In this document: piece after piece, positions 1 to 30,256 of the stretch
How positions within the stretch are numbered: the stretch's first letter is position 1
Layout: each line of letters begins with the position of its first letter
NCBI GenBank assembly: GCA_033675265.1
Contig: JAUJYZ010001260.1
Location: 913,501 to 977,500 of the forward strand
Direction of reading: 5' to 3'
Source: Actinostola sp. cb2023
Taxonomy: Eukaryota; Cnidaria; Anthozoa; Actiniaria; Actinostolidae
Length of the DNA stretch: 64,000 nt
The notes under the pieces: model-generated
The model's input: the letters and a program-made list of their open reading frames with translations, nothing else
Database searches by the model: none
What the model was told of the DNA's origin: nothing
Made by a program: the position numbers and the translations under genes

Positions 1-1108
1 TTGATAATCTTCATACATAAAGTATATATCATCAATACACCTCTTTATATACAGTTTATCTACATTATTTATACATTGTCACGACTTCAGACCACAGGCT
101 GTCAAATGTCACTACGACTAAACTCGAATATTTGTTTGTCTAATACAGTACTAGTAAGCTCACTTTATTCAGTTCTGCACTGCTGTTTTTGAAGACACCG
201 ATTAGTTTGTATTCATTTGTGTCACTGCCGCTTTATTGGAAGTAATTTAGCATGCTTGGTTTTCTTGGAATTTTGAGCCGATCGCCGCCGACATTTGCAT
301 TTGTCACACACTTCAACACTGCTCATGTAAAGTAACGCATGCATGTAACACACATATTGTTTGAAATAAGTAGTTGAAAAGCTAAAGGCAAGAAGGTAAG
401 TTTATTTTTATCAATTCTGCTGGAAAAAATATAAGTAGTTTTCGTGTAGCCTGCGTAGCTGTATTTCCGGCGGAAGGGAGGGGAGGGAAGGGACTTGCGC
501 AGTCTATATGACGAGGCAGTGAACATTTTTCTTCGCAAGATACTTCGCTGATTATCCACTTTTCGATGGTATATAAAACTTTCTTATTCATTACGAAACT
601 GCTTGAGGGAGAAAAGGAGACTCTGTCAGCAGGGAAACTCACAAACTCAGGTCGTCTATACGGATGATTTTTCGTCGTTTGAAAACGCAAACTTGCATTT
701 TGTCTTTTTTATTTATGTCCCACACGGCACATGGAAACCGGCGATCTCGTTTTCCTTGGAGAAACGCGCTTATCCGCGTCGACGTATCTCCAGTGATTTT
801 CTGTACTCAAAGATGCCCTCAGCGCTCGCGCGAAGAGAAAACCTCTGAGACCATGCACGCAGGGAACTGAGTAAGTTGTACTTACCCGTAGACAATATCG
901 TTCTGTGTGCTGAATTTTACACACATTTCCTGATTGAAACTCTCTGCGAAGTTTCTTCTCGCTGCACAGTGAACATAGCATCTCGATCCAACGACGTCTC
1001 TGCTTTAGCGAGGCGACGGAAACACCAAATACTACAAAGGTGTCAGACGAAATATTCGAGTCTTTGTTCTAAAACTCAAAATTACTCCATTTCATTTTTG
1101 AGCAAGTT
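1..1108. other. upstream DNA of copy 1, no gene recognised
   Basis: I see no convincing exon, tRNA or transposon here. Short open frames overlap on both strands without protein-like composition. A segment near 446-500 starts with GTAGCCTGCGTAGC followed by a G-rich run; a related phrase recurs at 52200-52240, so it is probably an old dispersed repeat. Homology with the other two repeat units begins only near 1109. Confidence 0.5.
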
Positions 1109-1700
1109 TTGGTTTGTAATGTTGCAACGTTGCATTTCTGTTTTGTATTTTTAATTATTATTGTTATTATTATGATAGCTAGCTAGCCGCGCCTGACGTC
1201 ATAATTCCGAGAAACGTACCATTCTCGGTATCGCTGAACATGGGGCGTTTTCCGAACATTCATCAAATATTTTGTCAATAAAACTACACTAAAATTTCTT
1301 GTGAACTGTTCAAAACAACACAGTTTTAATTGTTTCTGCCTAAGAAATTATAGAAAATATCATCAGGTGAATATTTCCCAGAAGAAATGAAATGATTGTT
1401 TTGAATAAAGGTCAACCGAATTCCACGAAAAATAAAACCTGCTGAATATTCATGAGTTCATGGAATAGCCACGGGACTTTCCCTACCATAAACTCGAAGC
1501 GGCATGTCATAAATCTACTCTTACAAAAGCAATTGTGCTTACGTGGCGGCTTTGCTTGAGGCTTGGAAATATCAAACATTTCAACGGTCAAATCCCATGC
1601 ATGTAGTTGTTTCAACCATTGTGTCTGCTGTGAATCTACAAAGGTATGTTTAACTACAAAATTGCTATTTAGTACTGAAGTGATTTCACTTTTCTTCGCG
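1109..1700 (+). promoter_or_regulatory. putative promoter/5' exon region of copy 1
   Basis: This block recurs upstream of copies 2 and 3. It holds a full CRE/ATF site TGACGTCA (1194-1201), a consensus NF-kappa-B site GGGACTTTCC (1473-1482) and, on the minus strand, an IRF/PRDI-like GAAAAGTGAAAT (1683-1694). A possible non-coding exon 1 ends at the donor AAAG|GTATGT after 1643; the coding exon acceptor is 3.1 kb downstream. No clear TATA box is seen. The transcription start is unknown. Motif matches are seen directly; their use is inference. Confidence 0.45.
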
Positions 1701-2038
1701 CTTCGAAAGCGATTAGTTTTTGAACAATTCCTCGATTTTCATGAAGACAAGCTGCTGCAAAGTGCGTGGTATAGTAGAAACGTGAAGTAGATTCTTATTC
1801 GCGCCGAGTTTTTGTCAAATTCCGTCGTAGTTTGTCTTGTACAAGACTGCTATAGCTACAAAATTTGCTGACACGACACGATTGAATGAAATGAAAGACT
1901 TTATATTTTAACTAAGTAAAAATAGTTCGTATTTGAATTGAAAGGCTATCTAGTACCGCTACCCTGTATCCTCTATCTAAAATCTCTATATCCTGGATAT
2001 TTCCATCCATTCATACTTTCACTTTCGTTTTCCAAATT
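1701..2038. other. conserved 5' intron DNA, no gene
   Basis: Homologous to the same position in copies 2 and 3. It contains one degenerate unit of the CTATCTAGTACC repeat (around 1946-1980) that is expanded tenfold in copy 2. Nothing coding is seen. Confidence 0.5.
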
Positions 2039-2662
2039 CTGTCCAAACCCGATGAAATATGAGCTGGTAGTATGTGTCATATGATTGGCTCTGTCCAAAC
2101 CCGATGAAATATGAGCTGGTAGTATGTGTCATATGATTGGCTCTGTCCAAACCCGATGAAATATGAGCTGGTAGTGTGTGTCATATGATTGGCTCTGTCC
2201 AAACCCGATGAAATATGAGCTGGTAGTATGTGTTATATGATTGGCTCTGTCCAAACCCGATGAAATATGAGCTGGTAGTATGTGTCATATGATTGGCTCT
2301 GTCCAAACCCGATGAAATATGAGCTGGTAGTATGTGTCATATGATTGGCTCTGTCCAAACCCGATGAAATATGAGCTGGTAGTATGTGTCATATGATTGG
2401 CTCTGTCCAAACCCAATGAAATATGAGCTGGTAGTATGTGTCATATGATTGGCTCTGTCCAAACCCGATGAAATATGAGCTGGTAGTATGTGTCATATGA
2501 TTGGCTCTGTCCAAACCCAATGAAATATGAGCTGGTAGTATGTGTCATATGATTGGCTCTGTCCAAACCCGATGAAATATGAGCTGGTAGTATGTGTCAT
2601 ATGATTGGCTCTGTCCAAACCCGATGATATATGAGCTGGTAGTACGTGTCATATGATTGGCT
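2039..2662. repeat. 52-bp minisatellite, 12 units
   Basis: Twelve head-to-tail 52-bp units starting CTGTCCAAACCCGATGAAAT and ending ATGATTGGCT fill 624 bp. Units differ by only a few point changes, for example CCCGATG to CCCAATG. Copy 2 has about 3.5 older, more varied units at 29657-29840, and copy 3 retains less than one (near 55964-55991). The array lies in the presumed 5'-UTR intron. Confidence 0.95.
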
Positions 2663-2813
2663 CTCAGTGCGCTTGTATACTTTTCAATATATGCACAGAC
2701 GCATATTATAATAATTTGTCTTTTCTCGTGTTAGTATGTTTTTAGTTCTACATGTATGCACGTGCTGTACCATTCTATCCTGGGTAGCTAGTGAGAAAGG
2801 CTTAAAATATGTA

Positions 2814-2866
2814 GAGGTGAGGGGAGGTAAAAAGGAGGAGGGGGAGAAAGGAGGGGACTCAAGTAG
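2814..2866. repeat. short G/A purine tract
   Basis: A GGGGAGG/GAGAAAGGAGG run. It appears to be one edge of the purine tract interrupted by the 2.9-3.9 kb insertion; the other edge is at 3931. Confidence 0.6.
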
Positions 2867-2869
2867 GTT

Positions 2870-3930
2870 AAGGCCTGGGATTTCAGCAAAACACTCAAAT
2901 CTGCCTTAAATGGCAATGGATGAGTGAAATATAATGAGATTTGGGGAAATGATGTATTCCATCAAACTTTTAAAACAATTATGTGTGCGTTTTGAGGCTG
3001 ATAAGGTGTCACATGACCTGTCACGTGATAAAACACATTTTTGACAAAGACCTTTTTACGGATAGACCGGAAGTAGCTGAACGGAGTGCATTCTGGTCTA
3101 GATTCGGCACAAACACAACAATCAAGGCGCCATATGGGCAGCCTGCAATAATGACACGAAATACTCCTAACATGTGGCATAATGACCCATCTGAACATTA
3201 GTAAAATATAGTAATCTCTAGTAACTACATTATATGGTCTATCACGTATATAATTTTCATTTTATGCTATTCAAATTGCCGTTATACACAAAGAAACGAA
3301 GAAAAATAATAAAACGAACCTTTCTCGATATCTCGTGTCATTATTGCAGCCCATCACGGTACACCGAGGCATGATGAAGTGAGTTTGTTTATGTTCTTCC
3401 AGAGTTCTTCGATCCAAAAATGGTGCTCAGATTGTTGTGTTTGTGCCGAATATAGTCCACAATGCATTGCGTTCGGCTATTTCCGGTCTATCCGTGAAAA
3501 GGCCTAAGAGGAACCAAAATTATTTTAGTGTTCTCTATATATGTGTTAATTATAAATGTGTCTCCGTTACTGAACCATTAACCCTGTTTGGGGAGATATT
3601 ATGCAAAATAGGTCACGTGACTACTAGTTTTAGTCTTTATCTCACAATATCTCGTTAAAGGAAGTTGATAGTTTATCAGCCAAGACACATCTATAACAAG
3701 CATACCAAGCATATTTTTATAGTTATAACATTGGATCTTTATTTTATTTATTTAGTGTTGTTAGTTTTGTAAGAGCATAGAGACAATAGTATTATGCTCC
3801 CAATACTTATTATTATTATTATTATTATCCCGAGACAAGTCTAAAACCATCGAAACAATTTCAATTCTGTTTCTCTCCACCACCGCAAATTAAAAAATGT
3901 GTTTTATCACGCCATCACCAAGATAATCAA
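2870..3930. mobile_element. copy-1-specific fold-back insertion
   Basis: About 1 kb that is absent from the same place in copies 2 and 3, where a continuous purine tract is found. It contains nested imperfect inverted repeats: 3051-3123 pairs with 3430-3502, and the phrase around GCAATAATGACACGA near 3146 pairs with its complement near 3335. No transposase frame is seen, so it looks like a non-autonomous fold-back element. Exact ends are uncertain. Confidence 0.55.
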
Positions 3931-4050
3931 GAGAAAGGAGGGGAGGGAGAAAGGAAGGGAGGGAGAAAGGAGGGGGCGGGGAAAGGGGTGGAGGGAGAAA
4001 GGAGGGAGGGGAAAAGGAGAAGAAGGGAAGAGAGGAGAGGAGGAGAGGAA
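3931..4050. repeat. G/A purine tract
   Basis: GGGAGGGAGAAAGGAGG-type homopurine run in the 5' intron. The same position is purine-rich in copies 2 (29985-30256) and 3 (56067-56393). Such runs can form triplex or G-quadruplex DNA. Confidence 0.8.
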
Positions 4051-4277
4051 CCCCTGGGCTGACCAGAGTGATTGTTTTAAACTATTTAAAACAAACTAAA
4101 CGATTTCCCTCTGGGGTGGGGCAAGCCCCCTGATTGTATTTTTCCTGTTGTATTTATCTGAAATTTCTACCTCTATGTTTCAACATCAAACAATCTTCTG
4201 AATTTTCCACTTCCTCCCAAGCAGGGCACTAAACACTCGATCTCTGCATTTCAAAAATAGCCAGGGGAGGGAGGGGA

Positions 4278-4638
4278 TACTCCCTTTGTCCAAGTGGTAG
4301 GGGTGATCGGCGGTCAGTTTTGAAAACGACCCTTAATAGGTATGCATAAATTAAAAGAGCTGTTGAAGCCATGTTCATTTCGACCCCTAAAAGGTACGAC
4401 CATATATGGCGAAACGGTGATTGTGTTGATATTGTTTAATCAATGACGGGACAACATCTTTCTTCTGTTCTTTCATGTTTGTTCAATTAAGAAAATAAAT
4501 ATCAATTGACCCTAAAAGGTACAGAGTGATGTTGCGTAACTGATTTTTGAGTCGGAACCCCTAAAAGGTACACACAGGAAATATTTTCAACCCTAAAAGG
4601 ACCGCCGATCACCCCTACCACTTGGACAAAGGGAGTTA
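4278..4638. mobile_element. MITE with 37-bp terminal inverted repeats
   Basis: The ends 4279-4315 and 4600-4636 are perfect 37-bp inverted complements (ACTCCCTTTGTCCAAGTGG...). Flanks are ATA and TTA, compatible with a 2-3 bp target duplication. The interior carries several spaced copies of CCCTAAAAGGTAC. Copy 2 lacks the element, and copy 3 keeps a remnant without the left end (56612-56893). Confidence 0.8.
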
Positions 4639-4740
4639 ACCCCCCACCCCCAGGCAAAAATATCTTAATCTGGTTTAAAGCAGTACAAGCAACTCGTGTG
4701 TTACAGTGTTACAAAATTTAAAACAAATTCTTCCTTTCAG

Positions 4741-5045
4741 CTGATGATGTAACAGTGAAGTAAATCCAACATCAATTTGCATCACATGCGATGGCAGATA
4801 AGAGTGTCAAGCATGAGACTGCTATCAAAAATGACAACAGTGTGGCAAACATACCATCGGCTGTAACTCAAGAGGATGAAAAAAGTGAACCCAGGAACGA
4901 AATGAATGTGGACAATAAAGATGGAGGTCCTGAAGACACACAGTCTTGTGCATCTAGTGATGAAGATGATGAAATAGTAATTGATGATAGTGGAGATAAT
5001 GTAGGAGATGCTGATAATAGAGTTGGAGAAGATGTGGATGGAAAG
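4741..5045 (+). CDS. RNF213-like: copy 1 exon 2 (first coding exon, CDS from 4791)
   Basis: Acceptor CCTTTCAG ends at 4740 and donor AAAG|GTAGAC follows 5045. The ATG at 4791 is the first in frame after a 50-nt leader; coding phase at the end is 0. It encodes residues 1-85, hydrophilic and acidic. Residues 61-67 read EIVIDDS, a hydrophobic run followed by acids, like a SUMO-interacting motif. Confidence 0.8.
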
Positions 5046-8000
5046 GTAGACTAATTTAGATTTAAACTATTAGAGTGATGGCACTTAACCCGTGAAACAG
5101 ATATTAGCCAAGTAGATATTACTAGACACTAATTCCATTGTTTTCTTTTGTTTTGATTTGACTATTTAGTCACTATACTATTAGATTTAGTTTCACGGGG
5201 TAAGTGCCATCACTCAATAGAATCATTTTCAAAAAAGTTGTCTCCATAGCTTACAATGGTTACAGAAAGAAATGTCACATCACTTGAACTGAGTTGACAC
5301 TCATTAATTATTGATTATGATGTATGTGTATTGTAGAATGGCAATGCATTTCGATATTGAAGATATGAAGAATTCGAGAACATGTGCGCATGCTCTGTAC
5401 AGTTATAGAGCACGCAGCGACTGATCAGAACACAAGAGAAGTGTTAGGAGAAGTATGATATATGAGTAGTGAAGTACCCTATAACTGCACAGAGCACAAT
5501 GGACAAGTTTTCTATTTCTTTTATAAAATTAAATTATGATTTTAAGGCAAGTTTTCAATTTTGTTCATTACAAAAATGTTTGAATATCTGCGTGTGCATG
5601 CTCTGTGCTCGGCATATGTATCCTTTGGCAAATCAGAGTGTGTGCGTGTTATATATCCTAGTTAGTTATTTCATAATGCTTATTAGCAAGGTTTGGAAAT
5701 ATTTTTCTCAAACTCATTTTTAATAAGTCATGATGACAAAAAGGAAATCACCAACAAGGTTTGAATTATTAATGGTTAGAGAACCTACATGTATATCAAA
5801 TACTCGAAAAAATAGTATATGCCTCCATAATTTCAAAACACCTTGAAGTCAGTTGAAAAAAACTTGGCTCAACCCCTTTATTTTCTACCCACTTGTCGGT
5901 ATTTTGAAATCACGCAGAGGAATAATTATTTCTCATGTTTGATATACAGCGTTTTTTTAGAATGACTGAATTGCCCAATAATATCATATTTTTCATTTTT
6001 GGTTTTCTGTCTTAGTTATCTGAAGACCAAATACAAGATACGAAAGAAGAAATCGATGTTACAAAAAAGAAGAAGAAAAAGAAGAAAAAGTCTCCAGAGA
6101 AATTGACTAAGAGGGAGAAAAAGGAACTCAAAAAGAAAAAAAGGGAACAGAAAAGAATTGAGAAGGCTAAAGAAAACAATCTTTTTAAAGAGCAAAATAA
6201 GAATAGGAAAGGAAAGAAGGAAAAGGGAAGACAATCAGAAGAAGATGAGGAACTCTCTAATGAAAAGTTTCTCGAAATAGTAGATAGTTTGGAAACACCT
6301 GACAATGCAACAAGCAGAAACCAAGAACAAGAGGAAAAGGGAAAAGATGCTGACAATAAAACGAAAGTAGCCAAAGAAATAGGAAAAGAGGGAGTAAAAG
6401 ATGATCAGCAATCTCAACAACAAGAAAACATCAATCAGAGTAAAACAGATAGTACAGATGGAAATGATATTCTTGATGCAAGTCCAAGAAATACAAATGA
6501 ACCAGTGAGCAGTGACGCAGCGATTGATAGCAAATCAGGCCAAGAAGACAAACCAAGTACCTCAGGAATGTCCAAAGAACCAATGTCGCCAACACATATT
6601 CGTAATGATGAAGAGAAGAACGAGGAGCAGCCAATGGACACTGAAGACTGGGATCAAGAATCTGAAAATGGTGACCAAAAACAAGGTGATACCTTAAAGA
6701 AAAACAGTGGCATCGATAGAGAAGTAGTATCACCTGAAATACAAAACAAAGGTGAAGAAGGTCCATCATTATTTTCAAGAGTTGTAAGTGGAGCCAAATC
6801 AATACTTGGATTTCCAAGCAATCAGGTAAGAGACAAGGATGCTGCTGAAAGAGAAATGCAGTACATGTACATGCAGTGTTTAATTGAGTAGGATATACTT
6901 TAATATAGCATAGTAATAAAAATAATTTCATTAGCTCATGCATCTTATTGGTTAATACTGGGGTTTTTTTCGACAGGAAAGACAGTTTTACTTTTACGTC
7001 GATGTACAAGTGCCAGCAAATTCCGTTTACTTACATATTTATAATAAATCAATTTGGAAAGATGTTGGATATCACCAAATGGAATCAATAGATAGAAATA
7101 AAAGGTACTGGAGAATTAGAGCTTTTTGCTTACCCAAAAACTTTACGTTTTACTTCTATGTGGTGCATCCTGGAAATCAAGTACCATTTCATGACCTTGA
7201 TAGAAAAAATATAGACAAACGGAGAATGGATAATCTGAGAAGCCACTACTATGTGTTCAGGTACACGAACTATAACAATGACTACAGCACTGGCCTTTTT
7301 TGGTTTGCTCGAGATGTCTACTCTAAGATGTGTACAGGTCAGCTGACCCTCAAAGACTCCCTAGATGAGTATGACCAAATTCGATTTGGAGTTACAAATC
7401 TTTCTAGGCAAGAACGGAAAAATGTGGCAGACTGGATAGAAGGGAGATTAATACAAGAAGGAACTAACATCAAGAACGCCCTGTTTTTCGCACATGTTAT
7501 TCAGCATTTTGATGGCAGACTTCTCTACAATACTAAGAATTACAGTCCGCTGTTGTTGAAAGATCTGATTCACAATGACAGTTGCATTACAACATTGTTA
7601 AATGCAATACACCAATGCAGCAAAGATGATCTATATCTGATGATACCTGACGTTGCAGGTCTTGTTGCAAGTCTTCTGTGCAAAATACAGAGTGGCAAAT
7701 CGCTTGAAATGTTCGTTGTCTTTGTTTTCCATGTAGGAATGACGCTCATTGAGAAACTGGCCAACCTTCAGTTCCATTGGAATGAAGAAGAAATCTCGTT
7801 TCTTACTAAGAGCGAGGAAATTTATTCCATTCTCAAGAATCCTCAAAGTGAAAAGGATAGAAATCGAGTCTTGGGCTTCATTGTGAAAAGAGCTCCATCT
7901 ATCTCAGCAATCTTCGAACTTCAAGAGTTCCTTAATAATGCCTGTCCATTGTATGTCACTTCATCTGCTGAATTATTCAAGAAGACATGCAACAATCTTA

Positions 8001-11000
8001 TTTCTTCCAAGCAAGCAAGCAAGACATCTTGGCCAACTATTCCACAGAAATTGAAATCGGATTTTGTGGAGCCTTATATCAAGGCATTGTGTGCAGAAAT
8101 CAAGCCCCTCTACCAAATCAATGTCCAACAAGAAGATGCTATAAAAGTCTTTTTTACAGATGAAACAGCACTGGAAAGTGAAGCAGTAAAGAAAGCTTTC
8201 TTGGAGATCTGCAAGTCCCCAATTACGTCAAGGGTTGTTGTTGACATACTTCAGGATTCCACCTTTAATGCTACATGTTGGAAAGATGCCTCAGAAGATT
8301 TCAAGAAAGAAGTTTACCAATGCATACTTAACTTTGCACCGCAAAGGAATCAGCAAGGAAACCACGTGTTAAAGAGTTTTCAGGACCTTGATCGAGTGTT
8401 CTTTGCATTAGATGTGTGCCCCTTTGATGGCATTAAACAAACCGCGACAGACAAATGCCACAAAGCAGTCAGCACTGAAGAACTCAAGACAATGGCAGAC
8501 GCCTATGAACAAGTACAAGAACTACATGCAGACGTTCGTGATCAGTATTTTGGTTGCCTCCAGCATTCCATCGAGAATGAAGTAAAGAAAGATCACATTC
8601 ACAAAAGTATCATCGCACTTCTAAAAGAGCTACCAGTAGAAGACGAGAAAGAAAAGAGCAAAGTTGAAAGGTAATCTTCATAACAGAGCAGTCAGTAGGA
8701 TAGTTACCAATGTGTTGTACTTCAATATTTAGTCCTTGTGCATTGATAGGTCGCTGTCGTATCCTGATGCACTAAATGGCATTTCATCTTTCTATTTCAG
8801 GATCACTAAAGAAACTCTGCGATGCCTATGTCAGGAACTAAAGATTCCCAACGAAGATGTGGAAAAGCAAGGCTTTGAAAAGGTTTTTCAAGATGTTTTG
8901 AAGAACATTCCCCTATGGTCGGCACTGTTGGATGCTTGGCCACCATTGCAGAGCTTTGAAGAGTTTTCACAAACCGTGCTGCTGATGAAAGTGCTTGACT
9001 TGTTAGAACAGGCCCTGAAAGATGAAAATATCACAATCAGGGACTTGAAAAGTCTGGGAAATAAAAAAGAGGCAGTTGATGTTCTTCACAAAATGCATTC
9101 TGTGTTTTCCAACCAAAACCTAAGAATCCAAAGTTCGTTAATTGGTCTTGTAGCAACCTGCCTTGTAAAGGAAAGCAACGTATTCCAGAGATTTGAGCAA
9201 TTGTTAAAAGCAGTTTGTTTTGTCAAGCAAGAAACAGACAAAATCGTGAATGTAGTAGACATCGATGACATTCTTGAAAATCTCACATCCAAGAAGAGCA
9301 GCTTTGAAGACACAAGTTTATCTGAAGTACTTGATGAGTACTACTGGAGAAGTGCAAAACCGTTTCTCGACAGGATGGATGACCTACAAGATTTGATGCA
9401 GTTCCAAGTACTTAGAAATGTAGCCATAGATCGTTTGGAAGATGAATATACCTCAGGAACGTCCAAGGATGTCCTAAAAGTGCTAATCGACCGCGGAAGA
9501 TTATTTTTGAACGAATTATGTGAACCTCTGTTCAAGGATGTTGGAAGTATGCCTATCAAACATGCAGAGATCATCCTAAAAGAAGTCGGTGAAAAGACAT
9601 TAGATTCCGAACTAAACTTCATACAGCGAAGCGCTAATAATCAAAAGTTTGCAGTCGATGTGAAAACTGTTTTGCTAAGGTTTTTAAATTTTCCCCAAAT
9701 GCGCGAAAACTTACAGGCGCTCGACAAGCTGCTACAATCGATGGATCTTTGCTTTCAAGAAGAGATAATTGAGTTCTTTACGAATACGAAGGAATGTTAT
9801 GAAAATCTACAACAACTGTATGATGCTACAGAGAAAGTTATCGATATAGAAGACTCGTTGCACGGACCTCGTGGCGAAGTGGTCAAAAAACTAGCTGGTT
9901 CAAAAGAGCTGATAAAGCTTTTGCAAGATACAGCTGATGACGACGTCCGTAACTTGATTGACGCAGTTGAAGAACACTCTGACACCACAGTCGCCGCAAA
10001 AGAGGTTTCTGATTTCATTGAAATCCATAAGTTTTTTTCGCCAGTTTTTCGAACTCAAGGCAGTCAGTTCTTCGTGGTTTTAAGAAGGCGCCTTCTTTCT
10101 CTTTCCGAACATGAAGCCATCGCAATCGCAGCCCGAATAAAGGCCAGCAGCCACAATGCTCACAGTCTGAGAAACGTGTACAAAAATGTAGCTAACCGAG
10201 GCGAGATGACGAAGGAAATAGTTGATGCAGCCCTCTGTAAAGGACAATTCAAGATTTCCAACGCAAAGATATGTGACCCTGGTGAAGGCTCTAAGATAAC
10301 GAGAGAAAGATGGGAGTACAGCGTGACATATTTAGATGAAGGTAACAACATCACTCACAGCATGGAAAGCTTGCAAGATATCAAAAGCCGAGCTCTGCTA
10401 ATTGTTAATTCAGAGAAAAAGCAGCTAAGTAGTTCTGAAAAGGAGGTTGATTATCAGCGTTTTATTGATCAAATCGACTTACTCAATGAAATCGTCAATA
10501 CTGGTGAAGACCTCCAGCAGTCTGGACATCCTGATTTTGAAGACTTTTGGCGAGATTGTCATTCCTTCGATGAAATTCAAACTACGTCCAAAGAACTAAA
10601 TGAAGAACGTCAAAGATGGGAAAGAACAGTTAGAGAGGCAAGAGATTCAAACTTCTATTTGAACTTTTTTCACCCCAAGCAGGTGTGGACTTTGAAAGAA
10701 TTCTTTAAGTGCAATTCCAGTCTGTCTGTCACACAAGAGGCGCTCGCACTCCTCAGGTTCGTGGATGGTTCTGTGACGATGAAAACCATTGCACATTTTG
10801 TGAACGACCAAAAAATTAAGGATAGTCCAGATTTCAAAGAGCAGTTTAGGCAGATTGGCGACTGCTTGGAAAACTTTTTTGGCAGTAGTTCAGGAAGATT
10901 ACAGAAAAGAACTGAAGTCGACACAAAGAGAGGACTCTCCGTGGCTGTTCTTGAAAAAGATAGCACCCAAACTGCTGCTATTGTCATGAAGCTCTTCAAG

Positions 11001-14000
11001 GACTTGCCTCTCCAACCAAACAAGGTATTATTCTGCCATGAAAACTCAACATGGGACGAGATAGAGCTCTTTCTCCGACGTTCTTTTACACCGCAAAGCT
11101 ACAACGTCCCACACTGTCTTGCGAACGTTGAAAGTCTGGATACTGACTTGCAGTTTCAGCTGATAGATGCCATTCGAGGTTTCCAAGCCAAAGTATCACA
11201 GTACTGGTTGGTTCTTATTTGCCGTGGAGGCGAGCATCACCATATTGTCAATCAGTTTCGAGAATGTGCGAAGAAAGTAGAAGCAATGACAGATCGTGAA
11301 CTGAAAAGTGCATTCTCAACCAAGTTTCCAGACGTCTCAATGGTAACCTCAGACCTTCCTGGGCTTGGAAAGACTGAGCTAATATACCAAGAAGCGGCAA
11401 GGAAACGGAAGAGACTTGTTTGCTTCCCAATTAATGGACCTGTTGAACGTCACAAGCTAGTACATCGATTGTCACGTCTGGGTCTTGATGAGGACAGTCT
11501 TCTCCATATTGACGTGTCCGAGGTAGATGATCCTCTCTTCGTCGACAGTTTCCTTTTTGAGCTGATCGTGTTAGGAATGGTTTCATCTTCAACATTAGTG
11601 TTTCACCTTCCAACCTTCTTCATTGCTATTGAAGTGGCCAACACACTCCAACATCATCTCAGAGATTCCCTGGCGGTGACCAAGTGTTTCCTCCGCATCC
11701 ATGAGGACTGGAAGGACTTCCAGAACTTCGTGTGCAGCGAAGAGAACGAAAGCGCAATCCAAGTAGTTTGTCAGTACCTCAACGCGTATGAAAAGAAAAG
11801 CTTAGAGACAGAAACACTAAGCTCAAGAGATATGAAAGAAGCAACGCCTTTGAGTGAAAATGAATGTAGACGTCTGTTGAAAAAACACTCACCATGGTGT
11901 GATTTATCTTTTAACACTTTGGAGATATTTTTGAATGTTTTGGCAGCGCAATTGAGAAGATTTTCATCAAGTCCATTCTTTCGCCCAGAACATTTGAAGG
12001 CAGCTCTGAAAGAAACAGGTGACATCCGCGTACAACTGTTTGAAGCTCTGAAGAATGTGTCCATTGAGTTTGCCAAAAGGTCCGTAGAAGCCTGTAAAGA
12101 AGTACAAACACTTGCTCTTTGGCAAAATGTCTTAAATTCGAGGAAAGATACAGCCAACAAAATGGTCCATCGTGTTGATGGGATGGTACGGTGGGCAGAG
12201 GATAATCATCTTGTTGTGATGTTTCAAGAAGCAGACTCAATTTCCGCCCTTTTTCGCGAGCTAGAAATGGTTCCTAAACAAGTCCAAGAGCTTTTCAAGA
12301 GTCAAAACGCCCCGTTAAGGGATTTGGGAGCCATAAGCGAAAACGATCTAGAAGACAAACTGAGGAAAATTCTGATGGTAGATTCAAAGAACCAAAGAGA
12401 AAATGATGGCCAAAGCTATGTACTTACTCCGGACAACATTTTAAAGATGGTTCTGATTGTTCAGCGAATTCGTGCAAGAGTTCCTGTGATTGTGATGGGA
12501 GAGACAGGATGTGGAAAGACCAGCTTGGTTCGTTATCTTGCCCAATGCTGCAGTGCCAAACTCTATGTGATGAACTTTCATGCAGGAATCTACGAAGAGG
12601 ATATTGTCAAGTTTACAGAGAAACAGATGAAAAGAGCGGAAGAAGATCCGGAAAAGCAAGTGTGGGTCTTCTTTGATGAAATAAACACGTGCGATTACCT
12701 TGGTCTTATCTGTGACATCATCTGCCACAGGTGCCTGAATGGAAAAGAGCTGCCTCCTAATATCGTCTTCATAGCGGCTTGCAATCCATATTGCTTGAGG
12801 TCATCTGATAGTATTACCACGGCGGGTCTTACTGGAAAGAGTCTTACCGATGAATATTCAAACCTTGTTTACAGAGTGAAACCACTTCCAGAAACCATGA
12901 TGGACTATGTCTGGGATTACGGGTCTCTCGATCCCCAAGACGAGCGAGTATATATAAGATGCATGGTGGACAAACTTCACACCAGTGACTCAGAGTTGGT
13001 AGTTGATCTCCTTGCGATTTCACAACAATTCATTCGCCAACTTCAAAATCGTTACAGTGTGAGCCTTCGAGATGTTCGTCGATGCATCCTCCTTGCCGAG
13101 TGGTTTAAGGAAATGATAGCAGCTCGTCCACCGATTGATGATTCCAAATTCAGCAAGAAAGTAAGAATTGTTTACAATGAAGCTCAAAGACGTCACTCCG
13201 ATGAAGACAGATCTATCATTCTAGCCCTGGCGCATTCATACCAGTCTCGTATTCCATCAAGCAAAGAAAGAGAAGATTTCCGCTCGAAGCTTGAACAGGT
13301 GTATCACAGACACCAAAAACATATATCAGAAACTGATATTGACAATATCGTAACAGCTGAACAGGAGGAATATCTTGCCAGAATGGAGCTTCCCGAAGGT
13401 ACAGCCCGAAACACCGCTCTCAGGGAAAACGTGTTTGTCATCCTGGTTTGCATTCTCAACAGAATCCCAATATTCGTGGTTGGTAAGCCTGGCTGTAGCA
13501 AGTCCCTCTCCATGCAAGTTATTATAAGTAATCTTCGTGGAAAAGACTCCAAAGATGACTTTTTCAAAACGCTTCCCCAGCTGCTTGTTGTGTCTTACCA
13601 AGGCTCAGAATCCTCTACTTCAGAGGGAATAAAGAAGGTAATTCAAAAACAAATATCTAATTTTACGCGAGATGTTAGAATTATGTTACCTTGGTTCCAG
13701 ATGCTCTTTTAACACACACTCTCTCTCTCTGAAAATTCTATGTTTTCATAACGGTATGCGAATATTTAAGGGATGTCTCTTAATTGATAATTGTCCTATT
13801 CTGATGCAGACTAACATATTTCTCATGAAGTACGTTTTAACAATGTTTTAGGTTTTTGACAAAGCTCAAAAATACAAAGAGCAAAACAAAGAAGACGAGT
13901 CACTCCCAGTGGTTCTTCTAGATGAAGTTGGCCTCGCAGAGATATCAAAATACAACCCATTGAAGGTGTTGCATCGTCTTCTTGAACCGGAAGAGAAAGA

Positions 14001-17000
14001 GTTGCCAGACGTGGCAGTGGTTGGAATTTCAAATTGGGCTCTGGATGCTGCCAAAATGAATCGTGCCATTCATCTTTCAAGACCTGAACCAACACTCAAA
14101 GACTTGGAAGAAACTGGCTCCTCTATTCTGGAAGCACAGTTAGAATCATCAAGCGTTTTGAATGAAGATGCTCTTCAAGGTGATCAATATTGTTCTATAA
14201 TATCTTTGTTTTGTCGATCAACCAGTTAGTGCCGGTGGTGGTAATTGGTTTATGAACATATTTATTGATGTTGTCATTCTTTTGACAAACAGGCTTAAAC
14301 GAAGAGATGCTGAGCTGTTTAGCACAGTCCTATCATGAGTACCAGAAGGAGCAGAAACACGACAACTTTCATGGATTAAGAGATTACTACTCTTTGATAA
14401 AGTGTCTGAGTCAAACGCTGATGAACAAGGTAAATTATCCATATCATTTGGTGCTGTACGAATCATAGCTAACCAATAAATGATTTGCAGGACTATGGGT
14501 CATTGGCTACGTTTCAAGCTGCAAGTACGTTTAGGTCGTTGCAAAGAAACTTTGGTGGTCTCAGAAAAGAAGATCAAGGAATTGAAGAAATCCACATTGA
14601 AAACGTGAAGTCCATTGAACTCCACCATGAATTGGATGAAAGAGAGCATTTGCCTGTGACCGACATGATTATGGATAACTTGAAAGACCCATTTGCCCGT
14701 CATTTAATGCTGATTACAAGTGGAGAGTCCGCCCTTGGAATCATTGACGACACCTTGGCAGGAATGGACAAAGAGAAAGTGGTCATCTATGGAAGCAAGT
14801 TTGAAGAAGATCAGTCCGAAGACTACAGCTATAGAACACTGAGTCGTATCATCCTCCATATGGAAAGAGAATGCGTTTTAGTGTTAAGGGATTTAGAGAG
14901 TGTCTACGGAAGCCTGTATGACATGCTGAACCAAAACTACGTTGTGGTAGGTCAGAAGAAGAATTGCCGAGTTGCTCTTGGGCCATACAGTAACCCTATG
15001 TGTCAGGTATGCTATTTCTAGAGACCGTGATCTCTTGCTTAATATCAATACTTTCCTTTTGTGATGTATTTTATATTGATATTTTTGGTCGCGCGCATCT
15101 TTTCTGCGCACGCTCGCGTACGTTTTTGAGACCGGAAATCATAACGTGAACAATATTTTCTAATAATTTTACATATTTCTTACTCACTTCTAAAATAGTT
15201 ACTTATACATCATTTTACACACTTTAAGATTGAATCTGCCTCAGGATAAACCATAGATAAACGGGTTTAAAGAAATTTCGCCTTTAGCGGCCAGTCTCCG
15301 CTCGGAATTCAAGTTCAAAGTTTACTGCAAAATATCTCTATTCAGATGTCTACAACTGTTAAAACTAAAAAAGGGTTAATTTCAATCTTTCACCGAAAAA
15401 CTAAATTTTGTTTTTCATCTAGGCCAGAAAAAGCGATAAAAGACACGACAGTTTTGTTGCAGAACCACATAATAATAACATTGCTTTTCCCACCGAAAAA
15501 CGTTTGTTTCTTATGTCCCTTGTTATAAACAAAATAGTTCAGTAGAAAGTCAGGAAATCTTAGCAGATAAAGGCTGCTAGCTGTTTTCTGATATCAATAT
15601 GTATAAAATTATTTTATAAATGGCCTTCCGTTCAGACGCATTTGCCCGTGAACTTCCCGAAGTAAATTAAGTTAATGTGTTTAGATTAAATTATTTTTGT
15701 TCCATTCTAGGTCCACGATGGGTTCCGCTGCATTGTGCTAGTTGACGAGGGAAAGGTTGACTACACAGACCCACCATTTTTAAATCGTTTTGAAAAGCAA
15801 CTCCTTCGATACTCTGATGTATTGGGACACCGTGAAATGGAAGTCATTTCACAGCTTAAGGAATGGGTCAACAATTTCTGCAGCATTGAAGACAATGACT
15901 TCAGCGACAGAGACGTTTTCCTGGGACTTCAAGATGACACTCTAGCTTCGTTGGTCCTTCTTCTCAGTCGACAAAACGACCCAACCAGCGGCTTACTTCA
16001 AAGATGCAAGGAAAAGCTTTTGGACATTGCTACCCCAGATGGTGTATTGCGAAGCCTTTGTTCAAACCAGTACAAGAAAGATCCTCAAGAGGTTAAAGCC
16101 TTGTACGATAACTATTTCTTCAAGAAACCTCTTCACAAAGGCCTTAAAGGATTCATCAAGTCCTTTAACGGTGAAGGTTCTACAAATTCCAGCCTTAAGT
16201 ACTTGGTTGTGACGCACTCGAGTATTCACACAGATGTTGCTGAATGTCTCGAAGGATTGTTTACTTGTCAGGTGGAAAAGCTTGGATCATACAAGTCTGA
16301 AAGACAACTTCTCAAGAACATCCAGCAGTTCTGGCAAGATTCTTCCAAAGACCTGTTGGTGTTTCAGTGCAAACCAAATCTCGATGCGGAGCACATGTTG
16401 CTTATGACATCAACAAGTGAGCAGTGCCATGAAAGCTACCTAATGAGATGTAGCAACGAAGGAAAGTCACCCACCAAGAGCATTTGTGTCATCGTTCATC
16501 TTCAGAGAGGAGAACCTTCAGAAAAATCGAAACCCTGGCAATTTAGCTTTCTCAACAACTGGAAGCAGGCGACCATTGATGCTCTTGAAGAACCTGATGT
16601 CCAGGTCACTGCGATTCTTGGCCAAACGGTGGTGTCACTGATGAAAAAGAATACTCTCTCGTTGAAAAAGATCATGACTGAGAAATTGATGTGGTGTTTT
16701 ACAAGGCTGAAGTATCCACAGTACTCACCAACAGACCAAGACAGTGTCCATGACCATGTGACTAATATAACGTCCACTGGACCAATGATGAAATACTTGA
16801 AGAAGATCGTCATACGATGGATTACCAACCACCATGATAATCAGGAAGATAGGTATCAGTCATCCAGCCTTCGAGTTTGTGATTGGCAAGTGAAGGTAGC
16901 TTGTGACAAAAACGCGTTGTTGGGATCGTCGACCCTGTCAAGTGCTCTACTGCGCTACATTGACAATCTTGTGCGTCGGCCATTAGCCAAGGTAAAGCTA

Positions 17001-20000
17001 TGACCTATATAACTACCAATACTGTTTCCATTCATTAAAAAAGTTAGAAATCATTCACCATGTCATGTTGTTACTTTATCAGTAACAATAACAAGACGCT
17101 CTGTAAGCGTTCACTCGGCGGGCTTCAGCAATGAGCAATGAGCCTTCGGTTTCCTCAGAGGCACAGAGCGCATGCGCCTTGGTACCCAGTTGGCGATTTG
17201 TGGCCACAAGAAAAAGAAAGCCCGATTTTCAACTCGGCGTGCCACAGGCAACCCGCCGAGTAATGACATTGATTTCTCGTTGATGTATTATTGTTTTATA
17301 TATGTTTTACTGTTAAATTCCCCAATAAAAATAAAAATAATTAGTGCATCGCTTTGATGAAACTCGTTACTTTTCTGTTTTAGGCCATTTTCCTCATTGA
17401 AGATCGTCTGTCATTTGAGTGCTGTCAACGAGTGCTGAACAAAGCCAGAGACAAGACCGACACCCAGATTTTCTTAGCTGATTTGATCACTGATGAAAAC
17501 CTGTTCAACATCGATGACATCCCTGACCCACACGAGCCTCACTGCTATGTTCTAACAAAACCAGGACTGATCAGTTCACTTAACTTCCCATTCTCGCTCA
17601 TTTTTAATGGGAAGATCGACAGCCTACGAGATAGATATCTTGCTAAATCAAAGGGGCCTGACTTTGTTCAGGATCTCCATGATGACATTCGAGACAGTGT
17701 CCCTCAGTTGTTCAGCACTGGTTGGATGAATGACAACATGGAAGAGTACATCGAAGACGTCTTCGACTTCGCTTCTGCAAAGTTTTCTTCTGACCTATCC
17801 AGAGAACAAAGAATCAAGATCTTGAAAGCTGCATGCGCAAATCACCTGATACACTTAACAGGATGCGATGATGATGTGGTTCTAGCTCAGATCTACATCT
17901 TCTTGTGGAAGTTCGAGTCCAAGTTCCTTGCCATTCTGCAACTCTTTTCAAGTTGCAAATCATTCTTTGCTAAGGATATAAGTCGGCTGACAAGAAATTA
18001 TATCAGGGCTTTTGAAGATGCTATGCCAAATGTCACCAACCCAGCCAAGTCGGAAGTACCATTTGATGTAGAGAAGAGTACCAGCGTAAACGAGGATGGA
18101 GATTATAATGACGAAGAAGTTAGTTCAGGTGATGACAGTGACGATGGCTCAGACGGCGCTGAAAACAACACTGACGACAGTGATGATGATAGTGACGGTG
18201 ATGACAGTACTGATGATGATGACGATGACGACAACGATAGTGGAAGCGATAGTGATGATGATAGTGACGACAGCAACGATGATGATGATGATAATGATGA
18301 TATAGATGATAACAGCGAGGATGACGATGAAGGAGACCAAGATAATGAAGTAGATAATGGAAGCGATCGCGATGACAATACAAGGGACGAAGGTGAAAGC
18401 AGTTGCTATAAAGCTGAGGAAACAGGCAACCAAGAGCAAGCAGGAGATGCAGTGAACGACAAAACACCGTTTTTGGAAAACTTCTTCAACGCACTTTGTG
18501 AAACTCTATTACCAAATGAAGACCTCATCTCAAAGCTTGGCGGCCCTAAAAACTGGCAAACAACGGCTAACACATTCATATCCTTAGTGGCCAAGTCCGA
18601 TCTCCAAGAAACACCGCTTTACATTTACCTAAGGATCTGTAGTGACTTCACAAATATGGTCCTTGATCCACACAATCTTCAGAATCCAAACTCTCTGTAC
18701 ATGCTGAGCGAGCTTTGTCATAGGGGAGATCATCTTGGAGATCTTCAAAACTGTTTCCACGAGTTACTTGATGTCATCGACAACATGGAAAGCCAAAGCA
18801 GAGAAGCAGAGAAGTTTAAAATGAGCTTTTTATCGCGATGTCTTCAAAGTTGCGAGACGGAAGAATTTTTCAAAGACATCGTAACAACGGTCAGTTCCCT
18901 CACTGATAAAGAAACCCTTCAAATGGCAAGTCCACTGGTCTGTAACATCATACAGTACACACTCTGCATGTTGGATTGCGAAGGATTTGATTTCAACTAC
19001 CTTGACCTTCTGGAAGGCCGGGCAAGTGACTCTGCATTTATTCAAGTGCTGGATGAAGCGCTACACGCCTCAATAACAAAAGCAGATGGGACAACAGACT
19101 GTCACTTTGTAACAGTATGTTTAGACGCCATTAACAAGTTGATGCCAGGCACCGACATCCCTGATCCTTCAGAGGTGTGTAATTCCAGCAGCGAAACGAT
19201 GAGTTGTTTGAAGACTGCCGTGGCAATTGTAAAGGAACCTCGAGGCAAGCAGAGTATATTCGGGCTACTTATTGCAATTGCATACCTCAGATCATTTATG
19301 TCATCCTTAGCTGAAATGATCCACGAGAATCCTTCTTTTCTAAAGAGAGAATCCGAGTACTCAAACCTTTTTGTGTACTTAAATTCTATTTTTGAGATTC
19401 CAATGGGAAGCTCCACAAAATCTCCACGCAAAGCTTCAAGTCTGCTCTATTTTCTCAAAGAGCTCAAGGGATATTATTCCGTGTATGAGCTGAGACAGAT
19501 TTGCGAAGAAGCTAGTCAGCTTAGTATTCTAAGATGCTTGCCTTGGGAAGACCAACTAAGCACGACACCTTTTCACGTTCTTAAAGAATCGATCTTGAAG
19601 ACAACGACCAAAAAAGCTCTTCGTCAGTTGATAGTATCGAGTGATGTCAGTGCAGTTCAAGATATCTGCAACAGATTACCTTCCGACGCGAATCTAAGAA
19701 AGGTCTTTGCTGTAGTTTTAATGGAGGATCTATATTTGCTACCAAGCCATGTTGACACAGTGGATAAAGCAGCAGATACCATTGTCCATCTCCTACCTCG
19801 TACTTTATCTGATCCATACCAACGCTTCATTCTTTGCTTGACCGGGAAAGAGGATATCAAAACGTTGAGAGTTTCTCATGAGCGTTCTATCCGTTCTTCA
19901 AAGCAAACTACGATTGTCCTTCATTTACTTGCAATCCTTACTGCTGAACACAATCCAAAGTATATGGCCTCTCGGCCATTTGTCTCCTACTTCCTCGATC

Positions 20001-23000
20001 CACTGAAAGCAGCAGAAGGGTGTGTACTGGCCAATCCAGACAGCTCTAATCAAGAGCCAACGAAACTCAGCCATGCTTTCACCTGCTTGTGTGGAACTGC
20101 CTTTGTAAGAAACGACGAGCAAACATCCTGTCCCCAACGCCGTAAACTTTGCTCGACACTGCCTGATAGTGCGGGAAGCATACGGAGAGATTTGAAAAGA
20201 GATCTCTCATTATGTGTAGCAGATACTACAGAGGACGAGTTCTCTGTCTGTAATATGACTCCATCAAGTTTCAGATTGCTTCACTTACTTGTCCATTCAG
20301 CGCTCTATGCTGGAGTATCTCTGGAAATGTTTCCAAGGCAAGCATTGACACAGTTTTTGTCCATGGATGATGGTGCTGGAAGTCCCGTTGAACGATGCTC
20401 TAAAGAAATTGACAATGATCTACGAGTACTTCAAAGACTGTGGGGTTGTGGTGAAGAACAGATGGTTTCTACTGTACACCAACTCATGGAAGATCTTTCA
20501 GGCCTTGTCACAAAACCCACTGGTGCTCTATTCCTGACAGATACGTCAAGAAGACAATGGCAAAAGGACTTTTCTCAAAAAGTTGAGCAGCTTCTTCAGC
20601 GCCAAACCGAAACTGTCGTAGATGCCAATCTCACGTCGTTGGAGGCTCAAATCGAAGAGAAAGACTCCACTGACGACTCTGATGTCGAGGAACGAAACAA
20701 CTGGGTTCCTCGTCTGTTTCGCTCTACTAAAGAGGCAACTTTGGATGACTTGTGTTCAAAGTATCACTGTTCCACTCATTCAGATAAGAAAAAGCACTCT
20801 CTTATCGCACTCTTCCTAAAATACATCAAAATCCTTCCAAAAGCTGCACATCTTTACCCACTGATAAGGTTCTCCAACATGCTGGAGCGACGTTTTGGAA
20901 GACGTCTTAGTCGGGCAAAAGCCAATAAGTACATTGGAGATGTGATCAAAGAAGACTCGGTCCATTATAAAGAGCTGAAAGATGCCTTGGACGCTTTTTG
21001 CTCGTCGTGGGAAGTCGTAAGGTCAGACATCAAGAGAGAACTTGGAGAAGATGTCCCCCACCTTAGTGAAACTTCACCGACTTCGTACTTTCTGGTGGAT
21101 CCAGACTCCGGGGGGAGATTCATGCACGCTGCCATTCGAGTGCTACAAGGAATACAGAATGAATTTCAAGGTATGGTGGTCTAGTGCTCAGCAGTGAGAT
21201 TGATAAATGAACTTATCGTAAACCGTTATGATTGAGATGACATTAGATAAAGAAATTTATACGTACTAAAGACCGACAAAAGTATTAATGTAGTATTTTT
21301 CCCCTAGGCGAAGTACTGAATCTAGCTCTGGAAGGAACGTGCAAAGCGTTGGATTTTCTGAAGAAATCTGATGCCTCTTGTACCATGCCATTTGTTCACG
21401 TCCAAGACGTCATGGAAGAGGAAATCATATGCTTTGAATGGGACGATAGCATCTTGCTTCATTCTTACCACAATACAGACTATGGAAGAGGAAACGAGAT
21501 ATTCTATGACTTCGACAAAATTGAACGTGAACTTGCAGGACGGTTTCTGATGAAAAGGGTTAGTTTACTGATGGAAACAAGTTAGATTTAACGCATGGAT
21601 TATGAATTTCTTTTTTCCTTCCTTCCTTCCTTCCTTCCTTCCTTCCTTCCTTCCTTCCTTCCTTCCTTCCTTCCTCCCTTCCTTCCTTCCTTCCTCCCTC
21701 CCTGCTACTTTCTTCCTTTCTTGCTTGCTTCCTTCCTTTTTTATTTGCTTTCTTCCTTACTTTCTTCCTTCCTTCTCCTCCCTTCCTTCTCCTTCCTTTC
21801 TTCTCCTCCCTTCCTTCTCGTTCCTTCCTTCTCCTCCCTTCCTTCTCCATCCTTCCTTCCTTCCTTCCCTCCTTCCTTCCCTCCTTCCTTCCTTCCTCCC
21901 TTCCTTCCTTCCTCCCTCCCTGCTATTTTCTTCCTTTCTTGCTTGCTTCCTTCCTTTTTTCTTTGCTTTCTTCCTTACTTTCTTCCTTCCTTCTCCTCCC
22001 TTCCTTCTCCTTCCTTTCTTCTCCTCCCTTCCTTCTCGTTCCTTCCTTCTCCTCCTTTCCTTCTCCTTCCTTCCTTCCCCTACCTTTCTTCCTTGCTTCC
22101 TTCCTTGCTTCCTTCCTTGCTTTCTTCCTCCCTTCCCTCTCCATTCCAAATAAACAAGCAATTTTGACTACACTACGACACCTAAGGAACACACCACGCA
22201 TACGCAGGTTTGATACATGGGCATGTGGGTCAGCCAGGCCCAGCAGCTTTATTTCAAGTTAACAGTAATTAAGATACAGCTAATGAAACGAAGTAACTAG
22301 ACATCAAAGCCGGACACGAGAACCCTGAACCACGTAGTGGAGAATTGGGGAACGTGCACCCCCGACCATGCTAAGATGTGACCTTTAGGGGTTTAAGGCT
22401 TACAGTGTATCTAAACTTAATTCTTTGATAATGTTTACAATACAAAAACATCTTCAATTAATAATAATCTTCATATACAATCATTCATTGTGAAAATTGG
22501 GTCTAGCAAAAGTACGCGACGAGGCTGACCGTAGACAACTCTCTTTACTAACGGCACTTATTTATACTCCTTTATTACACTAGGGACCTCACGAATGCAC
22601 ACGGACCTCAAGAGCTCCGTGCCGGCAAAATATCAATTTATGTCAATCTCGTGCCTCGCTTGTCACAAATTACATTTCTCGTTTGACCTTTTCAGGTTCA
22701 TCTAGGGACAACTGGAGGTCTCAGGTGCTTTCCTTACAGTAACGAACTTTTCCACACCTGTTCAAACGTTCTGAATGACGTCTGCCTGCGCATGCCCCAA
22801 GAGTCAATCGACGCTGACATGCAAAATCGACTGAACGTGTTGAAGGACAAAAGTCTAGAAAGTGTTCAGGATTTGTTGGAGCATTTAGAGGTTATTATAT
22901 GTTGGTTAGCAAAGGCGTCTCATTTGGACCCTGAAATGGCATTGGTGGATTACGTGAAAAGGTAAATTGGAGGAATATCAATAAATTAGATTCAACATCT

Positions 23001-25316: not shown

Positions 25317-26327
25317 TGTGTATTATAATAATAATACTTTATTAATTCTCCCCCATGGGGCTTTTCAGAATCACTACTTAACTATAAATGTACAACGATA
25401 ATTTAAATAGAAATAGATAGATATAATACAAATATATATATAAATTCTAATTATTCAAGGAAATGTTTCATAACAAAATTAAAACTATTTACAGAAGTTA
25501 AAGACTTAAAGTCATTTGGTAAATTATTCCATAATGAAACAGCTCTATATAAAAACGTGTGTTGACCAGATGCTGAACGATAGAAAAGTATCTGTAACAT
25601 AGTCTTATTTCTGGTGTTACGATGGTGTATCGGCTGAGATCTTGTTTGAAGCTTATCAGATAAATACTTAGGAGCTAAGCCCCTCCTGCATTTAAATGTC
25701 ATTATGGCATCTCTAAGTATTATCATAGTGTCCACCGGCAACCAATTTAACTGCTTTAGAACCGGTGTTATATGATCAAATTTCCTAGTGTTCGTAATTA
25801 TCCGTGCAGCAAAGTGTTGTACCCTCTGTAATTTAGTAATGTTTTTCTTTGATGTGTTTGACCAGACAGATGAGCAGTAATATAATCTGCTGAAAACCAA
25901 AGTGTGTACAACGGTTGTTAATGTTTCTTTATCTAGTAAATGTTTCACTCGATTAACTTGACAGAGAAGGCCTGTACACTTTGAAACCACTTGTGTGATG
26001 TGATCATCATAAGTTAAGCTGGAATCCAACATGACACCAAGATCTCTGGCTAAGGGTACCGGAGATATTTCCTTGCCAAGAAGAGTAACACGGAAGCCGT
26101 CTTGTATTTTGTTTAACATCTGACGTGTTCCCAATAGAAGAAGTTTTGTTTTGTCAGTATTTAAGAGAAGACTATGGTTACAGCACCATGTGGCTATCTT
26201 TCGTAGATCCGCAGTAAGGTGAGCCATGGCGTCCTCGGTGTCTTTGACTGGGAAAGATAGATATAGCTTGGAGTCGTCTATATAGGATTCCAAATTGCAT
26301 GCATTTGGGATGCATGCAATTTGGAAT
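25317..26327 (-). mobile_element. 5'-truncated non-LTR retrotransposon (CR1/L2/jockey-like RT fragment)
   Basis: The minus-strand frame 26362-25451 reads SYIDDSKLYLSF, the RT catalytic YxDD box, then TKLLLLGTR, LGVMLDSSLTYDDHI, LQRVQHFAARII and LYRAVSLWNNLP, all standard for the RT C-terminus of LINE elements. RT fingers and endonuclease are missing. The 3' end has an AATAAAGTATTATTATTATAAT tail pattern. Copy 2 lacks the whole segment (CCACTGTATATTGAATGAAT near 52735). The open frame upstream of the YIDD box runs through an inverted repeat and is not RT. Confidence 0.9.
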
Positions 26328-26534
26328 TGAATGAATGCCTGCTTCATCACAAGGCCCAGCATGCTTTGCAGACTCCATTTCCGAGCGTTAAAAAATGACG
26401 GCCGTGCTGGATATGAAAATATAAATTGATGATATCAGCAAGGATTAAGATGGAAATAATTCGAATAACATTTTAATGTATTTCATTTAGCAAAAAGAAA
26501 GTTTTTCCACTGACAAAAATAGAACTTAGAATAT

Positions 26535-29840: not shown

Positions 29841-29984
29841 ACTTGCCGTGTGCTTTTCAATATATAGCTATATGTACAGACGCACATCATAATTGTCCTT
29901 TCTCATGTTAGTAATGTTAATAGTTTTATGCGCATGCTGTACCGTTCCATCTGGGGTAACCAGTGAGAAAGGCCCAAAATATGT

Positions 29985-30256
29985 GGAGGGGAGGGGAGGG
30001 GAGGGAGAGGGGAGGGGAGGGAGAAGGAAGGGGAGGGAAAAGGGGAGAAGAGGGAAAAGGGAGGGGAGGGAAAAGGGAGGGGAGGGAAAAGGGAGGGGAG
30101 GGAAAAGAGGGAAAAGGGAGGGGAGGGAAAAAGGGCGGGGAGGGAAAAGGGAGGGGAGGGATAAGGGAGGGGAGGGAGAAAGGAGGGGCAGGGGAAAGGG
30201 ATGGAGGGAGAAAGGAGGGAGGGAAATGGAGAAGAAGGGAAGAGAGGAGGGGAGGA
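29985..30256. repeat. G/A purine tract, copy 2
   Basis: About 270 bp of GGGGAGGGAAAAGGGAG units, homopurine on the + strand; Gly/Arg/Glu/Lys frames here are artefacts. Confidence 0.9.

Follow-up and report, generated by a model that had tools for sequence, protein, structure and literature searches.

A tandem triplet of RNF213-like genes in Actinostola sp. cb2023 with a deeply diverged head in copy 3 and a hypervariable stalk patch

The window, which is the whole stretch of 64,000 nucleotides analysed here, covers positions 913501–977500 of contig C519 of Actinostola sp. cb2023, in an assembly of 424 Mb in 1594 contigs. The window was found to contain an RNF213-like giant AAA+ gene as a tandem triplet (copies 1, 2, and 3; Table 1). 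The flanks, about 59 kb after and about 40 kb before the window, contained only the rest of copy 3. Searching the assembly with the exon 4 protein of copy 1 gave three matches (three of the eight first-look candidates) and searching with the copy 3 head also gave three (three of the five first-look candidates), all of them at this locus. An earlier note on this DNA had spoken of an array; the copies are indeed in tandem, but the assembly holds just three. The exon numbering follows the exon 4 of that note. Exon 4 was open in copy 1 (6977–8671), copy 2 (34037–35722), and copy 3 (60119–61840), and the frame of copy 1 was open across all exons examined.

Table 1. Positions in the window of the features of the three RNF213-like gene copies.
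Feature	Position	Strand	Remarks
Copy 1 exon 3, charged, low-complexity, preceding the head	6016–6822	+	Open frame; donor GTAAGA at 6823, phase 0, read from sequence
Copy 1 segment deeply diverged from copy 3 (exon 3 end, intron 3, first ~107 codons of exon 4)	6665–7298	+	
Copy 1 head	6977–7297	+	Predicted beta-sandwich, possibly CBM20/CBM48-like
Copy 1 hypervariable stalk patch	7382–7474	+	Exon 4 codons 136–166
Copy 1 remaining exon 4	7475–8671	+	Predicted helical stalk
Copy 1 exon 5, with RNF213-like AAA+ motor	8801–13690	+	3' end approximate
Copy 1 exons 6–9	13852–21184	+	Open frames 13852–14229, 14473–15021, 15711–17003, 17384–21184; splice sites approximate
Copy 2 head	34037–34357	+	
Copy 2 hypervariable stalk patch	34442–34534	+	
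Copy 3 deeply diverged segment, including its own head	59586–60440	+	Left edge sharp (59585/59586); right edge at about codon 105–110
Copy 3 head	60119–60445	+	Protein 49% identical to copy 1
Copy 3 hypervariable stalk patch	60524–60616	+	

Minisatellite blocks were present between the copies at 1882–2805, 21600–22091, 48683–49234, and 29951–30271, with unit spacings of 52, 8, and 16 bases. A frame of 327 residues on the minus strand between copies 1 and 2 (25451–26434) had a weak reverse-transcriptase match (E 0.042, below the Pfam cut-off) and is perhaps a retroelement remnant. Intron 3 of copy 2 contained a MITE-like insertion at 33658–33950, with inverted arms of 122 bases that were 86% complementary and separated by 49 bases; no such inverted repeat was found in copy 1 at 6700–7000. 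Exon 9 (17384–21184, 1266 amino acids) contained a long acidic stretch rich in D and S. The exon had no match in Pfam or PDB, and its residues 380–1266 had none in the protein collection either.

The RNF213 family is linked to intracellular defence. Exon 5 matched RNF213 at E 1e-60 over residues 1225–1644 and exon 8 matched it at 4e-9, and the motor can be classed, by sequence, as an RNF213-type AAA+ motor. By analogy with the family, the triplet may have an immune role. Neither a RING nor an RZ finger turned up in a Pfam search of exons 5–9 and four small downstream frames, where the 3' gene model is partial, or in a motif scan of copies 1 and 2, which an intron-split motif would escape. Exons 4 and 9 showed no sequence match to RNF213 structures. 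In the structure models of exon 4, a beta-sandwich head was followed by helices, referred to here as the stalk. The best Foldseek match of the head model had an E of 0.039, and 33 of the 50 matches listed were starch- or glycogen-acting proteins (pullulanases, isoamylase, debranching and branching enzymes, beta-amylase, and STBD1), the aligned part of which we take to be their binding module. The named CBM20 entries (1cqy at rank 11; STBD1 at ranks 17 and 45) had a probability of at most 0.51 and an rmsd above 7, and a second structure aligner favoured other sandwiches, such as transthyretin. None of the three heads matched a carbohydrate-binding Pfam family at E up to 10, a range in which the HMMER filters drop most matches above 0.1. 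By Foldseek the head fold may resemble the alpha-glucan-binding modules CBM20 and CBM48, with no Pfam match to them, and the models point weakly to a CBM20-like fold.

Between copies 1 and 2, 20 of the first 95 codons of exon 4 differed (6977–7261 vs. 34037–34321), and the count given in the earlier note, 18 replacement against two silent changes (CGG/CGA, AAT/AAC), was exact. Its neutral ratio of three to one was fair, because kappa in the codon models was near 2.9. The neutral silent share of this stretch was 0.18 by site counts and 0.20, 0.23, and 0.25 at kappa 1, 2, and 3, which gives 3.7–5.1 silent changes among 20, depending on the transition bias. The probability of two or fewer silent changes among 20 was 0.26 by site counts and 0.21, 0.12, and 0.09 at kappa 1, 2, and 3; among overlapping 95-codon windows with at least five changes, 96 of 1661 had P ≤0.257. 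The 18:2 ratio alone is not beyond neutrality.

As a matter of density, the replacements do exceed chance. When the 192.7 replacements between copies 1 and 2 were spread evenly over the 4432 compared codons, 4.1 were expected in the head and 18 were observed, with two silent changes against 1.9 expected. In codons 1–187 of exon 4, 35 replacements were observed against 8.1 expected and four silent changes against 3.8. This concentration of replacements makes the first part of exon 4 a genuine hot spot, in which the silent changes are ordinary. When the replacement to silent ratio was set against that of the remaining gene, exon 3 excluded, the Fisher P was 0.012 for the head and 0.0006 for codons 1–187, and head replacements per site exceeded gene-wide silent change at P 0.0002, but their excess over exon 4 silent change was not significant (P 0.16 for the head; 0.12 for codons 1–187); all these P values are optimistic because the region was picked after inspection. 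The end of exon 3 had 22–23 replacements per 95 codons between copies 1 and 2, but also 9–10 silent changes. A mutation hot spot in the head is unlikely, since the silent change of copies 1 and 2 is ordinary there.

The earlier note had expected the variable sites to lie on a surface. Of the seven variable sites in predicted strands 2 and 3, all but one (16, 20, 22, 29, 31, and 33, but not 34) alternated with V17, L19, I21, V30, and Y32, the pattern that would be expected of an outer face. Loops were not favoured, since nine of the 18 variable head sites were found in predicted strands, where 7.4 were expected. The placement on a surface was judged from the strand pattern alone.

The codon models took in all three copies. 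In the head (codons 1–107), a single omega was 0.87 by maximum likelihood (ML) and not different from 1, and counting with copy 3 included gave 0.46–0.59. The earlier note had itself named a dN/dS of 1 or less over all copies as evidence against its proposal, and the head average is of that kind by both approaches. As an average over a long divergence, the counting omega of 0.46–0.59 indicates some constraint on the head, which by this measure varies freely in detail without being neutral. The branch omega of the head was 2.84 for copies 1 and 2, not significantly above 1 (P 0.12), and differed from the 0.66 of copy 3 at P 0.043; the point estimates of dN/dS between copies 1 and 2 were 2.1–2.8. 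A selected site class in codons 1–107 alone received no support (M1a/M2a, 2dl 1.96). In the stalk (codons 108–187), the single omega was 2.34 (P 0.083 against 1), M2a was favoured over M1a with a 2dl of 13.4, a value that none of 60 simulated nulls reached, and sites 136, 139, 141, 143, 144, and 148 had a posterior of at least 0.9 for the selected class. The joint models of codons 1–187, which use one tree although head and stalk differ in history, gave an omega of 2.90 on the branches of copies 1 and 2 (P 0.027 against 1) and a positively selected site class (M1a/M2a 2dl 12.0; none of 60 null simulations as large). In this joint fit 15 sites had a posterior above 0.8, 10 of them in codons 1–107, where the tree is longer.

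The clearest signal of the codon models is a patch of the stalk at codons 136–148, behind the head, and not the head alone. Over codons 136–166 the three copies were just 52–55% identical in protein, with little silent change. Diversifying selection on the stalk patch is supported. Diversifying selection on the head, which the earlier note had proposed, is suggested by the pile-up of replacements and by the selected class and the omega of 2.90 over codons 1–187, but not by the head taken alone.

In copy 3, about one-third of the nucleotides differed from copies 1 and 2 in a segment that begins within exon 3 and reaches about codon 107 of exon 4. The silent divergence of copy 3 from the other two was about 0.7 in the head vs. 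0.03–0.08 in the body. Copies 1 and 3 differed at 28.7 of 60 silent sites in the head, whereas the counts were 22 of 282 for exon 4 outside the head, 19 of 415 for exon 5 to the window end, and 35 of 1270 for exons 6–9 (Fisher P 2e-12, and 2e-25 with exons 6–9). In silent divergence from copy 1, the copy 3 head with the adjoining exon 3 end and intron 3 stands at 9 to 27 times the level of the body. At the left edge (copy 1 6664/copy 3 59585), the nucleotide identity of copies 1 and 3 fell from 93% to 66% in the exon 3 part that follows; it was 69% in the head, rose to 95% in codons 108–135, dropped to 78% over the stalk patch, and returned to 95% for the remainder of exon 4. Their protein identity was 0.49 in the head and 0.90 in both codons 106–135 and codons 167–565, whereas an outside relative (P0001) was identical to copy 1 at 0.44, 0.63, and 0.51, respectively. 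The heads of copies 1 and 3 are therefore nearly as unlike as that of a distant relative (49 vs. 44%).

The introns followed the same division. Intron 3 of copy 3 gave no BLAST alignment with copy 1 or 2, whereas intron 4 is young in all three copies. Intron 4 was identical in copies 1 and 3 (8675–8800; 61844–61969), and in copy 2 (35726–35864) it carried one local replacement and was 13 bases longer. The intron 4 identity was rejected as evidence that conversion had taken place between copies 1 and 3, since copy 2 differs by a single local event. The heads differ in history from the bodies. Copies 1 and 2 have heads with a recent common ancestor, since which mostly amino-acid changes have arisen in the head and the adjacent stalk. 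Both the stalk patch and the deep, sharply bounded divergence of the copy 3 head had been missed by the earlier note.

Silent divergence between copies 1 and 2 was uneven along the gene, with 17/143 (0.13) in exon 3, 14/226 (0.065) in codons 188–565, and 13/846 (0.015) in exon 5 after 9702; exon 3 and codons 188–565 differed from the latter at Fisher P 5e-8 and 3e-4, respectively. This unevenness is consistent with gene conversion. The three-copy omega did not differ from 1 either in codons 188–565 (0.74) or in the exon 5 part (0.98), and the comparison for a possible selected class in codons 188–565 gave a 2dl of 4.2. By parsimony, the copy 3 branch carried 36 replacement to eight silent changes in codons 188–565, and exon 5 to 10798 gave 20:7 for the branch of copy 1, 13.5:5.5 for that of copy 2, and 30:12 for that of copy 3, all of them near the neutral ratio. 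Between copies 1 and 2, constraint was seen in codons 188–565 (14 silent changes vs. 5.7 expected, P 0.0004) and in exons 6–9 (33 vs. 17.4, P 0.0001). It had been claimed that the motor exons are almost unchanged; this is true, but in part it is mere low divergence, as in exon 5 after 9702, and the three-copy omegas do not bear out a motor held constant by constraint. Because the body ratios are near neutral, the motors are alike through youth or homogenisation more than through constraint, and part of the replacement excess may be relaxed constraint.

Single-base frameshifts were found in copy 2 in exon 3 (at about 33552–33553, plus strand) and in exon 5 (37768 and 39011, plus strand, both in T runs), and in copy 3 at two places in exon 5 past the window (C519 978337 and 979301). 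A one-base difference was also observed at 13689 of copy 1, close to the exon end. The frameshifts of copies 2 and 3 lie within short A or T runs, and the remaining internal exon indels were multiples of three. Consensus error and early decay both fit these frameshifts. They are the chief weakness of the selection claims that rest on copies 2 and 3, although exon 4 is open in all three copies.

An RNF213-like body that is young or homogenised thus carries a head and a stalk start that diversify, a pattern that is real and unusual. The explanation that we prefer, and to which we give an even chance, is that the head of each copy differs in ligand recognition. Gene conversion or unequal exchange would keep the motor and stalk alike, while the head would be spared from homogenisation or exchanged. 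Selection would favour differences on a recognition surface formed by the head and the stalk start, and every copy would bring the same motor to a different ligand, as has been proposed for the CBM20 domain of primate RNF213. The fast-changing front part, which probably serves in recognition, suggests evolution toward different targets without proving it. A rival, which we hold as a tentative possibility, is relaxed constraint or decay, with copies 2 and 3 dispensable or pseudogenes and 18:2 a chance deviation around a neutral 3:1 to 4:1. The P of 0.09–0.26 for that count, the frameshifts in copies 2 and 3, the three-copy background omega of 0.74–0.98, the 36:8 of the copy 3 branch, and the near-neutral exon 5 on three branches agree with it. 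Real frameshifts would mean that copies 2 and 3 are in decay and that much of the 18:2 is accounted for by neutrality. However, copies 1 and 2 are constrained elsewhere, as the excess of silent changes in codons 188–565 and exons 6–9 indicates, the internal exon indels apart from the single-base cases are multiples of three, and the single-base frameshifts in A/T runs resemble long-read consensus errors. Drift alone also fails to explain a local fourfold excess of replacements with ordinary silent change, or the selected site class in the stalk patch.

The copy 3 head can be read in two ways, which are equally compatible with the data: conversion homogenised everything but the head, or the tract came from a donor unseen in the assembly. 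An exchange of the latter kind, in which copy 3 received a head tract of about 0.85 kb by one conversion from a divergent donor (another haplotype or a lost copy), is compatible with the preferred explanation and is in itself somewhat unlikely. The sharp left edge (93 to 66% at 6664/59585), the fast right edge near codon 107 (69 to 95%), and the position of both edges within coding exons with intron 3 carried along would agree with such an event, but the donor was not found in this assembly, and homogenised flanks around an unhomogenised head would give the same pattern. Plain tandem duplication at different times, with conversion that missed the head by chance, would make the copy 3 head a relic of the original duplicate and would involve no selection for diversity. 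The body is star-like and young with only the head old, copies 1 and 2 diverge unevenly at silent sites, as conversion would bring about, and a donor head was not found elsewhere in the assembly; yet the 35:4 in codons 1–187 of copies 1 and 2 and the three-way stalk patch with its low silent divergence are left unexplained, and we consider this reading quite improbable. A stronger form of the preferred explanation is a germline head cassette, in which conversion would keep the RNF213-like bodies alike while the head segment, from the exon 3 end to codon 107 of exon 4 with intron 3, would be protected, or exchanged in one piece, with selection diversifying its surface. This form seems doubtful to us. 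Against the preferred explanation itself, the assembly shows no donor pool of heads, as it holds only three copies.

If the preferred explanation is true, nearly identical motors with different heads would make RNF213 recognition directly testable. The heads and the stalk patch would mark the altered residues, and the head differences could be assayed against a constant body. If the cassette form is true, one immune motor would gain several interchangeable recognition heads. Primate work points to the CBM20 domain and stalk in the recognition of bacteria, parasites, and viruses by RNF213, without proof. In that work, point mutations in predicted sugar-binding residues left recruitment unaffected, a result that its authors call ambiguous (PMC11549300). 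Since these mutations had no effect on recruitment, a ligand role is unproven in primate RNF213 too.

Vertebrate RNF213 (mysterin; 8S24, 6TAX, and 7OIK) is likewise a giant AAA+ protein, in which an N-terminal extension is followed by a beta-sandwich and then a helical stalk, the latter order being a predicted one here. Counting from a putative start, the beta-sandwich follows the extension at about residue 355 in the present protein, and in human RNF213 it occupies residues 378–515 (PMC11549300). Unlike vertebrate RNF213, the present gene occurs in three tandem copies, and a RING/RZ finger was not found in the exons scanned. An expansion of RNF213 has been reported in symbiotic bivalves (PMC9993606), which, like the present triplet, represents multiple RNF213 genes in an invertebrate; expansion alone is described in the part of that report available to us. 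A head mosaic or head selection of RNF213 in invertebrates was not found to be reported in the openly licensed literature. In simian RNF213, positive selection on the CBM20 domain and the adjacent stalk was reported among orthologues of 24 species (EMBO Rep 2024, PMC11549300), and the head and the stalk start are the fastest-changing places there as they are here. That comparison concerns orthologues across species, whereas the present copies are paralogues from a single genome, in which the head is mosaic. For the CBM20 domain and stalk of RNF213, selection was thus known already from primates, and the new part is the three-copy mosaic among paralogues.
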